Shown piece after piece: positions 40,887 through 47,469 of a stretch of DNA of 47,469 bases. Numbering within the stretch: position 1 is the first letter of the stretch; each line of letters starts with the position of its first letter. The notes under the pieces are model-generated. The model was not told the DNA's origin and made no database searches. It saw nothing but the letters and a program-made list of their open reading frames with translations. The DNA is taken from assembly GCA_024642045.1 (NCBI GenBank), contig JAHEBX010000006.1, positions 1 to 47,469 on the forward strand, written 5' to 3'. The translations under genes and the position numbers were made by a program. This stretch comes from Pseudorhodobacter sp. (GTDB lineage Bacteria; Pseudomonadota; Alphaproteobacteria; Rhodobacterales; Rhodobacteraceae).

Positions 40887-42491
40887 TCAATCGGTGGGTT
40901 GAAAATTCAACACCGTCAACCCCTTTATATTGTTGGTAAAAATTGACATGTCGTTGTCAACAACCGAAGCGCTAACCGCTTGGCCCAACAGCTGCAGAAA
41001 AAGCTCTGATTTCGAGTCGTCGGGACAGAGCGCACGCGTTGTTGGACCAATCGTGATCGTCATGGCCAGCTTGTCCAGACCCCAATCGCCGATAGCACGA
41101 TTGCAATCCGCCTTGATGGTGACGCTGCCGTCGGGATGGAACCGGATCTGGTACTGGTTTGGCGACTGAATTTGGGTTGTATGGCCGTCCGCTTCAATGC
41201 CCACCATCTGCCAGGCCGTGCTGGTTAGATCTTCAATCAACGCGGCGGTCGCGGCGTCCGCCGGGTCCTTGATGACCCCGGTTTTTTGCAGCGCCTCGGC
41301 TGCCGATGCTGCGCCGAGCTCCATCACGTTCTCGGACGACGTAGCCCATGCCACTACGGAAATGCCGCTATCCTGAAACCCTGCGACATCCGAGGCGTAA
41401 CCCGGTGTCTGACCGCCATGACCCCAAAGACCCGGCTCTTTTTCAGCCAGGCCGATGCCGTAGAAAGATAATGACGGTATGCCAGTCGGCAGACCGTCTT
41501 GCATTATCGCAAGCGTCTCGGAGTTGTGAAAGAGCCCGCCGGACAGGAGCGTCGACATAAAAACGTGCATATCGTTGGCCGTCGAAATGACACCCCCGGC
41601 GGCCCATCCTTGCGACATGTTCCAAGAGGTGGCCTCGATCTCAAAAGGTGCGCGTTGAAAGGATCTGGGCAGACCGAACTCGGCACGTGGCACGCCGTCC
41701 CAAAGGAAGGTGTCTTTCATGCCAAGGGGGGCAAAAATGCGCGTCTGGTAAACGTCACCGATCGGCTTTTGTTCAAGCTTTTCGATCACAAGACCCAGCA
41801 GCACAAATCCGGTATTGCTATAGGACCAAGCGCCATCCGATCCCGGTGCAAACTGCGGTTTCCCATGGGCGAGCGCAAAGCCGACCAGATCTTCGGGCCT
41901 GTAGCCTTTGCGCATGGCATCGGGTTCGGCGAAGTCGCCCTCGATGATCCCGGGCGTGCCGTCAGGCGCGTTGTCGGTATAGCTGAATACGCCAGATCTG
42001 TGCTGCGCCAGTTGTCGGAGCGTTACGGCCTTGCCGTAGGGAAGGGCGGCTGCGATTTCCGGCAAGTATTTTGACAGCGGATCGTCAAGTTGCAACGCTC
42101 CTTCTTCAACCAGTTGCAACAGGACCGTTGCCGTCATCATCTTGGTATTACTGCCGATCTGAAAGGGAGACTCACAGTCCAGTGCCACTGCGGTATCGGG
42201 GTCGGCGACGCCAATAGACCGAATGTAGCGCCAGTCAGGGCCTTTTATTGAAAGGACGGCACCCGGCGCATATCCCAAGATCCCCGCGATAGGAGAGTCC
42301 GGATCCACCGCCCTTGCCAATACTTCGTCAAGAGCAGCAACAACCGATTGCGGAGCGGTCGTCGCGATTGCGCAAGGCCCGAATGAGGCCGCCTCAGCGC
42401 TCCCGACGGATAGGAGAGCGACGAGTGCTGTAGCTCCTGCAATGGATCTGGCGCAGGTCACGAAAGGCCGCCGGAACAGCTCAAGTGCCAT
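40887..42491 (-). CDS. Exported serine hydrolase (beta-lactamase/DD-peptidase fold) fused to C-terminal META/HslJ-like domain
   Basis: Signal peptide; SxxK in QIGSNTKMMTATVLLQL; YxN in WSYSNTGFVLLG; HGGQTPG; C-term TAWQMVGIEADGHTTQIQSPNQYQIRFHPDGSVTIKADCNRAIGDWGLDKLAMTITIGPTTRALCPDDSKSELFLQLLGQA resembles META. Confidence 0.88.
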   Translation of the reverse strand: MALELFRRPFVTCARSIAGATALVALLSVGSAEAASFGPCAIATTAPQSVVAALDEVLARAVDPDSPIAGILGYAPGAVLSIKGPDWRYIRSIGVADPDTAVALDCESPFQIGSNTKMMTATVLLQLVEEGALQLDDPLSKYLPEIAAALPYGKAVTLRQLAQHRSGVFSYTDNAPDGTPGIIEGDFAEPDAMRKGYRPEDLVGFALAHGKPQFAPGSDGAWSYSNTGFVLLGLVIEKLEQKPIGDVYQTRIFAPLGMKDTFLWDGVPRAEFGLPRSFQRAPFEIEATSWNMSQGWAAGGVISTANDMHVFMSTLLSGGLFHNSETLAIMQDGLPTGIPSLSFYGIGLAEKEPGLWGHGGQTPGYASDVAGFQDSGISVVAWATSSENVMELGAASAAEALQKTGVIKDPADAATAALIEDLTSTAWQMVGIEADGHTTQIQSPNQYQIRFHPDGSVTIKADCNRAIGDWGLDKLAMTITIGPTTRALCPDDSKSELFLQLLGQAVSASVVDNDMSIFTNNIKGLTVLNFQPTD

Positions 42492-42915: not shown

Positions 42916-43179
42916 CTATGCGCGTCGCCCTATCCATCGGCAAAGCGCAAAGAGAAGGGCGAGCGTCAGCAGCGGCGACAGCACCGCCGCGCCCATGTGC
43001 AAAGACTCGGGCAGGTTATCAATAAGCAAGACCCATGGCTGACCCAGCAAGATCACGAAGACCGCTGACACCGGATCAGCTTCCTGCCCAAAAAGGCCGA
43101 AGTGGCCGACCACAAAAATGACCAGGGCCAACACATAGGCGACACTGAAAGCATACAAGAATATTCGGCATAGCCGCAT
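42916..43179 (-). CDS. Small membrane protein of unknown function
   Basis: 87 aa with three hydrophobic stretches: MRLCRIFLYAFSVAYVLALVIFVVGHFGLFG...AVFVILLGQPWVLLID...AAVLSPLLTLALLFALCRWIGRRA. Confidence 0.6.
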   Translation of the reverse strand: MRLCRIFLYAFSVAYVLALVIFVVGHFGLFGQEADPVSAVFVILLGQPWVLLIDNLPESLHMGAAVLSPLLTLALLFALCRWIGRRA

Positions 43180-43750
43180 TTTATTCTTCCTTTGAGGTCA
43201 GACCATCCACACGGACCATCTGATGTTGCTGAACGACCCTAAGCTGCGACGCTCAAACCACAACAATCAGCCAAATCGCCGCGCCTGTTGGTTTTGCCGC
43301 TCCGCCCCCCCCTGATACCCTACTGACGCCGATCTATTGCATCCGCCCGACATCAACATCGAAGGCCGTTCCGCTAGTGCCCATCCTGCAAGGAGTGTGC
43401 TCGCAGCCAGAGACGCTTTCAACCCTGAAATCATGCGTGCCAAACGTTACACTTTTGACAGCAGGAACGTTGTGCGCTCTGGTGCCGCAGATACCCGCGG
43501 CACCAGCGCGGCACATCCGTGCAGCGCTTCTGCTGGCACCCGTTGCCCCCGTAACGTGTCAGGTGCGCCAGATTGCGTTCACGCTCCTTGGACCCCGTGT
43601 CATAACCGTAAACCTAATCAACACGGCCACTGGCACTCACAAACCGAACTGCGTGCAAGCCATCACGATCACCTTACTCTGAACACAACAAGTTTCCTCA
43701 ATCACACCGAAATCGTAATCAAGAATTTTGGCTGACACCCATGAGTTTGC

Positions 43751-43804: not shown

Positions 43805-44764
43805 TTAGTTGAGCGAGGATACAGTGATGCCTTCTTCGGCCCTGATGTGATCCTTGATCTCTCTGCGCAGCCACCGCACAAAGGCCCGAATTGCCGGTTC
43901 ATTTGCGCGCGAAGCCTTGAAGCAGAAGTTGTAGGACCGCATCGAGGGAATTCGGGTTTCGTTCATCGGTTCCAAAAGCCCACAGCGCAGCGATTCGGCG
44001 GCCTGAAATTCAGGAACGAGGGCTACACCAACCCCCGATTTGGCCATTTCCATCGCAAGGATATAGTGGCTGCTACGGATCCAGCCGCCGCTGCGGGCCG
44101 CGTCAACATCAAGACCAATCGAGTGTCCGAAACGATACCAGTCAGCGCCCAGATTTTCGGCCTCGACTTCTGTGGTGATCATCGGAAACGGATCGAGGAA
44201 GGTGCCCGGCTTTCTGACGGCAATCAAAGATTCATCGAAGATCGGAATCGGGTCATACCCCTGCTGGACCGTGCCCGATGTAAAGATCAAGTCGCCGCCA
44301 AGACTGCTCATCTCAGGCGTCTCGGCATAAAGCCGAAGCTCTATTTCAATGTTCGGGTTCGCCGACAGGAAACGTGGAAGCCGCGGCGCAAGCCAATATG
44401 GACCAAAGGCCGAACAGACCAACAGTGTCAACTTGGCGTTTTGTCCGCCCACAGCACTGGAAATGCTTGCGTCAAGCATCGCAAACGTTTCCGTCAGATT
44501 TTCGGCAAGCCTTTCGCCCACCGGCGTCAACTTGATCCCGCGACCAGAGCGTTCAATCAGTGTCTCGCCAAGCCGGTTGGAAAGCTCTCGTATCTGATGG
44601 CTGACCGCACTCAAGGAGACCCCGATCTCGGCGGCGGTGGCCGTGATCGATAAATGGCGCGCCACGGCCTCGAAATATTGCAGGTTGCGCAACAGACGAG
44701 GGTCGCGCCTGGCGCCAAGGGACAAGACGGAATAGGGTTCTAAATTACGATCAGATTTTGTCAT
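43805..44764 (-). CDS. LysR-type transcriptional regulator (GcvA-like)
   Basis: RRDPRLLRNLQYFEAVARHLSITATAAEIGVSLSAVSHQIRELSNRLGETLIERSGRGIKLTPVGERLAENL; start likely MTKSDRN at 44764 (track ORF starts 44833). Confidence 0.93.
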   Translation of the reverse strand: MTKSDRNLEPYSVLSLGARRDPRLLRNLQYFEAVARHLSITATAAEIGVSLSAVSHQIRELSNRLGETLIERSGRGIKLTPVGERLAENLTETFAMLDASISSAVGGQNAKLTLLVCSAFGPYWLAPRLPRFLSANPNIEIELRLYAETPEMSSLGGDLIFTSGTVQQGYDPIPIFDESLIAVRKPGTFLDPFPMITTEVEAENLGADWYRFGHSIGLDVDAARSGGWIRSSHYILAMEMAKSGVGVALVPEFQAAESLRCGLLEPMNETRIPSMRSYNFCFKASRANEPAIRAFVRWLRREIKDHIRAEEGITVSSLN

Positions 44765-44860
44765 CTTTTCCCGCGCAGGGTTCACATTGAAACGGTGGTC
44801 CGGCATCCTGCGATGCCACGAGAAAAGCATCAATGCAAAACGAGCGATGGTCCTATGAAA

Positions 44861-44889
44861 ACAGCCCGGGCCAGACGGGCCCGGGCTGT
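44861..44889 (-). terminator. Rho-independent terminator of the lipoprotein (and possibly PliG/SH3) transcript
   Basis: ACAGCCCGGGCC-AGACG-GGCCCGGGCTGT perfect 12-bp stem; minus strand continues TTTTCAT. Confidence 0.9.
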
Positions 44890-44912
44890 CGATGATAAAG
44901 ACTTAGCCAACC

Positions 44913-45264: not shown

Positions 45265-46338
45265 TCAGCCACCAAAGATGGCGGCCTCGGGAATGAAATA
45301 CTGTTCTTTGCCGATGGTAATGTTGAAGGTGCCACCCTGAAGCATTGAGGTCATCTGCTGCTCTCCATCGGCTTGCGAGAAGTCATAGCTTTCCGCCGTG
45401 CCGTTCTCGAAGAAGATCAGCCGCGTGGTCCCGTCGGGCCAGGTGATCGACAGGTCGGCACTGCCGTTGCCCCGGCGGACAACGCCGAACGTGCAAGTTG
45501 TCTGCGGGGAGTCGCCACGAATGCAGTCGATCGGGCCGGTCGCGTTGAAATTGGTGCCCGGGACCAGTGCGTCGACGGACTCGACCGGAGCCTGTTCGGG
45601 AAGCTGCGTCGCGACACCGCCGAGCGCGGGATCGCTGCCCTCGATCAGGAAATCGCCCGAAGCCCAGCCTTGGTATCCGGGATCAGCCAAAGTGGCCACG
45701 TTGCACCAGCGACGGCCTTCCGCATTCTTACAGCCAAGGTTGCGCACGACTGTGCCACGCGAAAGCTTGACAATGATGCCGGCGCCCGATGACGCATCGC
45801 TGCGCAGGTTCAGCGTGCCCGCGCCCGTGGTGCGGACTTCAAAGAAATCGGGACCACCTGCCAAACCGTCGGCAAAATCATTTTGAACCATTCCTTCGCT
45901 TTTACCATCGATCCCGATGTTCAGCGTAAAATTGGCCGTCTCGGCACGTCGCGCGGCATTGCGATAGAGGTATACAGAAATCGTATACTCTCCCGACGTC
46001 GGCAAAACCCCGTCAAAACGGTTGATGTCGGGCACCATTGCTCCGATGTTTTCGCTGACGGCCAGCGCCTCGTCACCCGGGCCTTGACCGGGGCCGTAAA
46101 CATTGAAGTAGGAAGAGGTATTGTCGGTGGTCATCGAAATCTGCATCGTCTGTCCGGCGTTGGCGCCCAACTTGTAAAGCACCATGTCGTAACCTTTGAC
46201 GCGGTCTTTGATCGTCGTGCCGCTGGCCCCCGCAGCAAAGTGAACTTGGACTGTTCGCACATCATCCTGGGCCTGGCCCAAGCCGGGTGCGAAGGCCGCG
46301 ACGGCCATGGCAAGTGTTAGGGCAATCCTTAGTTTCAT
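45265..46338 (-). CDS. Secreted protein: g-type lysozyme inhibitor-like N-domain + SH3b domain + Cys-containing C-domain (paralog 1)
   Basis: Signal peptide; RVKGYDMVLYKLGANAGQTMQISMTTDNTSSYFNVYGPG...GVLPTSGEYTISVYLYRNAARRAETANFTLNI; SH3b TLNLRSDASSGAGIIVKLSRGTVVRNLGCKNAEGRRWCNV; C-term DCIRGDSPQTTCTFGVVRRGNGSADLSITWPDGTTRLIFFENG. Confidence 0.87.
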   Translation of the reverse strand: MKLRIALTLAMAVAAFAPGLGQAQDDVRTVQVHFAAGASGTTIKDRVKGYDMVLYKLGANAGQTMQISMTTDNTSSYFNVYGPGQGPGDEALAVSENIGAMVPDINRFDGVLPTSGEYTISVYLYRNAARRAETANFTLNIGIDGKSEGMVQNDFADGLAGGPDFFEVRTTGAGTLNLRSDASSGAGIIVKLSRGTVVRNLGCKNAEGRRWCNVATLADPGYQGWASGDFLIEGSDPALGGVATQLPEQAPVESVDALVPGTNFNATGPIDCIRGDSPQTTCTFGVVRRGNGSADLSITWPDGTTRLIFFENGTAESYDFSQADGEQQMTSMLQGGTFNITIGKEQYFIPEAAIFGG

Positions 46339-46420
46339 CTGGTGCTCCTCTGGGTTTGGGTTCGTGCCACCGAAATCGCTTGGGCGATTTGGTCAAAGTT
46401 GAGGTGTGCGTTTCAACGCT

Positions 46421-47469
46421 TCAGCCACCAAAAAGAATCGTATTCGGAACAATATATTTCTCAAGTCCACCAATCATGACGACCACATCGCTTCCCTTCC
46501 ATTCGGCAAAAATCTCACCCTTGCCCGTCGAGTTGATTGGCCGACCGCCGGAAAACTCGATACGGCGCTGTACGCTGGGCAGAAGCGTCACAGTCAGCGT
46601 GGCATTTCCGTTCCCGCGCCGGATGACAGTGTAGGGACAGCTTGCGATGATGCCCAAAGCCTCGCATCTGATCCTGCCGCTGGTTGTGACCGGAGCTTGG
46701 CCGGGCAGTTGCGCGGCCGTGCCGGCGGCCGGTGCGCGGGCCGGTCGCAGATAAGTGGCCGACGCCCATCCGGACCGACGCGGTTGGCCGATGCGATGGA
46801 CCTCACACCAGCTTTGTCCGCTCTGATTCACCGAACAGCCAAGGTTGCGGACGACCTCTCCCATCGGCAAACGCTCGACGATACCGAAGCTGGTCGACGG
46901 TCCGGCCCGCATGTTCAGTCTGTCGCCCGCTGCGAGACCAGCGACCGCAAGATACGCGCTGCCAAGGCCAGACGGCTGGTTGCCCGGCGCGGCAGGAAGC
47001 TGCGCGGCCGCACCGCTGCGGATCGCAAGGTCGATGGTAAAGCGCGTGCTTTCACCCCTGCGCGCCGCCGCCCGGTACAGAAAGACCGAAAGAGTGTAGA
47101 CGCCGTCAGACGGCAGCGTGACCTTGATGCTGTTTGGCTGCGCAACATTCGTCCCGATCTGGTTTCCGATCGCCAGTGCCTGATCGCCCGGCCTTTTCCC
47201 CGGAGCGTAAAGGTTGAAGCTGGTCCCGGCATTGGTTGCCGAAAGCGCTGCCGTCAGAACCTGCCCCTTCGCGGCGCGGACCTGGTACAGAACCATCTCG
47301 CGCCCGGTCAGCCCGCCCTGCAACCTGATAGAGGAGCTCCCTTTCGCGAATTCGACACGGGTGCTGCGCGTTTCCTGACCTTGCGCACTTACGGCGAGGG
47401 GGAGCGTCGCGCAGGCTGCAAGGATCAGCAGGGTTAGAAATGCCTTGGACGTCGCCGCGCGTATGATGC
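46421..47469 (-). CDS. Paralog 2 of the same architecture; start lies beyond the window end
   Basis: Frame open to 47469 with signal-like AFLTLLILAACATLPLAVSAQG; GGLTGREMVLYQVRAAKGQVLTAALSATNAGTSFNLYAPGKRPGD...; SH3b DRLNMRAGPSTSFGIVERLPMGEVVRNLGC...; C-term RCEALGIIASCPYTVIRRGNGNATLTVTLLPSVQRRIEFSGG. Track start 47323 is internal. Confidence 0.87.
   Translation of the reverse strand, partial: IIRAATSKAFLTLLILAACATLPLAVSAQGQETRSTRVEFAKGSSSIRLQGGLTGREMVLYQVRAAKGQVLTAALSATNAGTSFNLYAPGKRPGDQALAIGNQIGTNVAQPNSIKVTLPSDGVYTLSVFLYRAAARRGESTRFTIDLAIRSGAAAQLPAAPGNQPSGLGSAYLAVAGLAAGDRLNMRAGPSTSFGIVERLPMGEVVRNLGCSVNQSGQSWCEVHRIGQPRRSGWASATYLRPARAPAAGTAAQLPGQAPVTTSGRIRCEALGIIASCPYTVIRRGNGNATLTVTLLPSVQRRIEFSGGRPINSTGKGEIFAEWKGSDVVVMIGGLEKYIVPNTILFGG

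Follow-up and report, generated by a model that had tools for sequence, protein, structure and literature searches.

A tandem pair of PliG-SH3b proteins in Pseudorhodobacter sp. as candidate wall-tethered inhibitors of GH23-fold muramidases

Two tandem genes at the end of a contig of Pseudorhodobacter sp. encode proteins, P0001 and P0002, in which an N-terminal domain homologous to the lysozyme inhibitor PliG is followed by a bacterial SH3 (SH3b) domain and by a C-terminal domain (C-domain). We assume, at roughly even odds (probability about 0.5), that both act as exported and probably wall-tethered inhibitors of GH23-fold muramidases. The modules of these proteins recur in a conserved gene neighbourhood, which suggests a system that guards the cell wall against enzymes that cut it.

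The window is the whole stretch of DNA that was analysed, one entire contig of 47,469 nucleotides (G000:C13). Re-reading its open reading frames placed the two genes co-directionally on the minus strand between 47467 and 45265. The first-pass annotation had described tandem paralogs at 45265-47469 with a set of shared motifs; both reading frames are present, the quoted motifs appear in the alignment, and the products are 36-37% identical over their full length (E=8.2e-52) with the same order of PliG, SH3b and C-domain. The upstream paralog P0002 (46421-47467, -) comprises 348 aa within the window; since its reading frame is open at the contig end, which cuts the 5' end, the start codon is absent, and the upstream promoter lies beyond the contig end. 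The downstream paralog P0001 (45265-46338, -) has 357 aa plus a stop codon. Judged by eye, both proteins appear to carry Sec-like signal peptides.

A third gene begins 55 bp 3' of P0001 (44913-45209, -) and codes for a lipoprotein-like product of 98 aa with a lipobox (LSGC) by inspection; we named it SEAN after a conserved SEAN stretch. Directly after it stands a hairpin with a 13-bp stem followed by TTTTC (44860-44890, -; -31.3 kcal/mol, z -4.6), a candidate terminator. Because of the short distance to SEAN and this terminator-like hairpin, P0002-P0001-SEAN is likely a transcription unit, and the SEAN lipoprotein would be made from the P0002-P0001 transcript. Further on, and on the strand of the module genes, follow a gene for a LysR-type regulator (43805-44833, -), the remnant of a gene that we call YRDG (43337-43679, -), broken into two frames with internal stops, and a gene for a small Transgly_assoc membrane protein of the GlsB/YeaQ/YmgE type (PF04226; 42552-42833, -; E=1.2e-10). 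Between the YRDG remnant and the latter gene lies a reading frame for an apparent membrane protein of 87 aa (42916-43179, -) without a family match. Just past the Transgly_assoc gene an AmpH-like serine hydrolase is encoded (40887-42491, -); it matches Beta-lactamase (PF00144), carries a META domain at its C-terminus and is possibly a peptidoglycan enzyme. The same genome contains a second module cluster on another contig (G000:C186, locus L106, 10596-12281, -), made up of one gene for SEAN and one for an SH3b-PliG protein.

That the N-terminal domain is of the PliG type had been proposed from resemblance, and comparison with solved PliG structures bears this out. By phmmer, the domain of P0001 (45910-46266, -) aligned with chain positions 2-113 of the 114 of Aeromonas hydrophila PliG (4dzg; E=5.2e-17) and that of P0002 (47021-47359, -; limits from the HMM) with positions 7-112 (E=4.7e-15), and the PliG proteins of E. 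coli and Salmonella were matched with E between 1e-5 and 1e-7. As far as sequence can tell, the N-domain is a PliG homologue over the full domain. An unrelated PPC-type sandwich (PF04151), which the first-pass annotation had named as the contrary outcome, was rejected: the family reached 18.3 bits in P0002, below its cut-off of 25.9 and far weaker than the PliG match, and gave no match in P0001. No PliG family is found among the Pfam or NCBIfam matches of the two proteins, which would explain database labels such as 'SH3 domain-containing', 'DNA breaking-rejoining' and 'PPC domain-containing'; some stand-alone PliG homologues also bear the last of these. Among phages, similarity to the PliG domain is seen in PHROG 2177 (E=2.5e-18), a family of 'unknown function', and the Acinetobacter phage records H21 and H22 each carry a gene annotated pliG.

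We take Y47, D48, R115 and R119 to be the residues by which E. coli PliG inhibits, a numbering that agrees with GYD and RNDAR in the sequence of the solved protein. All four positions are kept in P0001 (GYD, residues 49-51; RNAAR, residues 126-130). P0002 reads GRE and RAAAR, that is R, E, R and R, and keeps only the two arginines. In 61 N-terminal PliG modules from many genera, the positions of R115 and R119 are occupied by Arg in 50 cases each. Position 47 holds Tyr in 27 modules and Arg in 15; at position 48, Glu, Gln, Asp and Ala predominate, Asp accounting for 10 modules only. The C-terminal PliG-like modules of this protein family do not have the two arginines. Since position 47 is variable and Asp at position 48 is so infrequent, inhibition may not be general. 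P0001 with its full tetrad would be the likely classical inhibitor, and P0002, with Tyr exchanged for Arg and Asp for Glu and with both arginines kept, would probably have another target or affinity.

The middle domain is an SH3b domain, as had been supposed: SH3_3 (PF08239) matches it in P0002 (46748-46954, -; HMM limits) with E=3.8e-9 and 37 bits, over the cut-off of 27, and in P0001 (45646-45852, -) with E=7.4e-6 and 26.5 bits, half a bit under it. The C-domain (46424-46684, -, in P0002; 45268-45549, -, in P0001) has two invariant Cys and is an undescribed domain, as the first-pass annotation had suspected, with neither a Pfam match nor a sequence match in the PDB. Its model in P0001 (pLDDT 91) is all-beta with eight strands and one short helix, and a fold search against the PDB returned nothing with E below 0.001, the top entry being LolB (E 0.01, TM 0.39). 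PliC-St (3oe3) is among the best whole-domain TM-scores (0.42/0.46; Foldseek E 0.13), and we considered membership of MliC/PliC. This was rejected on sequence: none of 36 C-domain members matched PF09864 (MliC), and hhalign of the C-domain profile against 25 MliC sequences of the same bacterial family gave a probability of 1.1%, for which reason the C-domain is not filed there. The SEAN model (pLDDT 93) combines one helix with four strands (alpha-beta4) and is cystatin-like; its best fold matches include DsbG, a related dimerisation domain and designed cystatin folds (TM 0.56-0.70, E above 0.05), and by sequence it has no Pfam or PDB match.

In a relative represented by a MAG locus (L009), the order and strand of P0002-P0001-SEAN-LysR-YRDG are kept, with YRDG intact and the LysR copy 67% identical. 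Comparison with a relative indicates purifying selection, with dN/dS values of 0.12 for P0001, 0.19 for P0002 and 0.17 for the SEAN gene. In a tree of PliG domains, which was built from few columns and has weak deep support, P0001 and P0002 stand on separate branches, each with its own L009 orthologue. Because the two types are split in this way, the sequences point to P0001 and P0002 being old paralogs, not a recent duplication. A fixed rule for tandems of one Tyr47 and one Arg47 protein fits the window and L009 and fails in locus L076.

A survey of genomes for the architecture, as the first-pass annotation had called for, returned 37 PliG-SH3b-Cdom reading frames from iterated profiles (91 sequences; some loci overlap, so that duplicates are counted). 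Rearranged forms were found as well, namely PliG-SH3b-PliG, PliG-SH3b-SEAN, SH3b-Cdom, SH3b-PliG, SEAN-PliG and PliG with up to three SH3b and two Cdom modules. P0001 and P0002 are thus one instance of a mosaic family of four modules (PliG, SH3b, C-domain and SEAN). It occurs in Rhodobacterales, Hyphomicrobiales and other alphaproteobacteria and, further afield, in outliers such as Thiocapsa, Comamonas and Janthinobacterium. Among 298 genomes from the bacterial family of the window, 90 gave some module match, in many of them only to the SH3b stretch or to individual modules, and P0001 itself was matched in 3 of 61 genomes, its own included.

The surroundings of the module genes are conserved. 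In 27 genomes picked for having modules, a choice that should not bias proximity, 12 of 33 PF04226 genes, spread over 10 genomes, are no more than 2.5 kb away from a match to a module or to SEAN where 0.14 were expected (P=1e-20), and 7 of 20 genes for a TAP-like hydrolase (PF08386; 6 genomes) do so against an expectation of 0.09 (P=2e-12), under a null of uniform gene placement with genomes treated as independent. Genes for lytic transglycosylases (PF01464), taken as a control, were not clearly enriched (2 of 132 by inspection, about 0.5 expected). Across 70 module loci, many with short flanks and a few overlapping, the neighbours within 5 kb share the strand of the module gene almost throughout (SEAN 20/21, Transgly_assoc 13/13, TAP-like hydrolase 14/15, YRDG 9/9). 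We found no description of this neighbourhood in the open-access literature. The 'two-paralog system' of the first-pass annotation, whose lysozyme inhibition, peptidoglycan binding and eukaryotic targets are conjectural, is too narrow in view of the third, probably co-transcribed gene, the larger mosaic family and this neighbourhood; one of its two members, moreover, deviates at two of the four presumed inhibitory residues.

Several further features were recorded at these loci. YRDG is longer and apparently intact in L009, L010, L013, L023, L076, L082, L091 and L092, and the C-terminal part of its product is SEAN-like. A gene for a Met-zincin (DUF4953/DUF5117) peptidase-like protein adjoins modules at L014:1899-4418, L065:3-1112 and L090:1048-3939 (two of them maybe from one genome, G094), and an M13 peptidase is encoded in L023 and its relative in L024. 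A SigEcfG general-stress promoter (GGAAC-N15-18-CGTT) was rejected as a general feature, such sites being present only upstream of three genes of one cluster, that of Gemmobacter aestuarii (L010; upstream of 928, 3983 and 4785). The PADLOC models of known anti-phage defence systems gave no match for P0001, P0002, SEAN, the PF04226 protein or the LysR regulator; a TAP-like hydrolase (L077:7524-9464) matches the PADLOC model C3a206 (TAP-like protein) with E=8.7e-17.

In E. coli, PliG is an inhibitor of g-type lysozyme that aids survival in mussel haemolymph (PMC10609593) and in goose egg white (PMC3458809). Since Tse3, a T6SS effector, has the same fold as g-type lysozymes and lytic transglycosylases (PMC3792639), any of the three could be the target of a PliG domain. 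In E. coli, stress on lipoprotein transport induces the PF04226-type gene ymgE together with the lysozyme inhibitor genes mliC and ivy (PMC5105897). The shared fold, the protection by PliG, the precedent of Ivy and this joint induction lead us to favour a tethered inhibitor of GH23-fold enzymes. The homology to solved PliG proteins, the arginines retained in most N-terminal modules, the SH3_3 matches, the PF04226 neighbour and the hairpin after SEAN speak for this reading too. P0001 and P0002 would be exported to the periplasm, where the PliG domain would block the groove at the active site of a muramidase with the GH23 fold, be it a goose-type lysozyme, a lytic transglycosylase or an effector of the Tse3 type. 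The SH3b domain and probably the C-domain would anchor the protein at the wall or at a partner, so that the inhibitor is tethered and not free. P0002-P0001-SEAN would then be part of an envelope-protection neighbourhood, often together with the Transgly_assoc membrane protein and the TAP-like hydrolase. Besides the variability at positions 47 and 48, two observations count against an inhibitor of this kind: virulence of an E. coli pliG knock-out was unchanged in a chicken model (PMC3458809), and lytic transglycosylase genes do not lie near the modules. More tentatively, swappable PliG, SH3b, C-domain and cystatin-like modules, the Transgly_assoc protein and the TAP-like hydrolase could together form an undescribed alphaproteobacterial envelope system, a wall-tethered and diversifying shield against GH23-fold muramidases in which the C-domain and SEAN may inhibit further classes of enzymes.

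The modules might instead restrain the cell's own lytic transglycosylases during envelope stress and not a foreign lysozyme. Many hosts are environmental alphaproteobacteria, SLT enzymes are present in all 27 surveyed genomes, and the PF04226 neighbour would suit such a role; IltA, which inhibits MltF, is a published precedent, and Ivy inhibits lytic transglycosylases according to the passage of PMC10746161 that cites Clarke 2010. We nevertheless consider endogenous control unlikely, given that the modules show no genomic linkage to SLT genes and that their patchy occurrence would be odd for a housekeeping function. It is likewise improbable that the PliG domain has been repurposed as a generic beta-sandwich module for binding or scaffolding in an envelope-stress or secreted-hydrolase cluster, with no muramidase inhibited. 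The shuffling of the modules, the C-terminal copies devoid of the Arg pair, the variability at positions 47 and 48 and the TAP-like hydrolase that often adjoins would all be in agreement with such a scaffold, but the Arg pair is kept in most N-terminal modules across many genera. Immunity to weapons, that is a shield against Tse3-like T6SS muramidase effectors or phage tail or lysis muramidases, appears very unlikely: the GH23-like fold of Tse3 (PMC3792639), the PliG homologues of phages, an Ivy-type protein listed as a T6SS immunity protein (PMC13340143) and the clusters of diverged copies, which look like stored immunity sets, speak for it, yet no secretion-system or effector gene appeared among the Pfam-scanned neighbours (one of the listings giving the 25 commonest families) and the module proteins have no PADLOC match.

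Compared with the solved PliG proteins of A. hydrophila (4dzg), E. coli (4dy3, 4dxz and 4g9s) and Salmonella Gifsy-1 (4dy5), P0001 and P0002 have in common the homologous domain, apparent export and the RxxAR and SGxY-like motifs, and P0001 also the GYD residues. PliG, however, is a single domain of ~110 aa; since P0001 and P0002 join this domain to SH3b and C-domain, we file them as a PliG-carrying architectural variant and not as classical PliG. Unlike PliG, they are encoded in tandem, are followed by a lipoprotein-like gene and belong to a mosaic family. Their SH3b domain is set apart from other bacterial SH3 domains by a conserved C...WC pair. The C-domain model is small and all-beta as are MliC and PliC, but with TM-scores below 0.5, no Pfam match and the low profile probability we do not count the C-domain as a member of that group. 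PliG inhibitors are known as single-domain proteins and have been studied in gammaproteobacteria that meet animal hosts. Their occurrence as one module of envelope proteins in environmental alphaproteobacteria, where proteins of this type are annotated only as 'SH3 domain-containing protein', widens the possible users and targets of lysozyme inhibitors. With two undescribed domains, the C-domain and SEAN, and a statistically strong neighbourhood, the question whether lysozyme inhibitors are directed at own or at foreign enzymes becomes directly testable.
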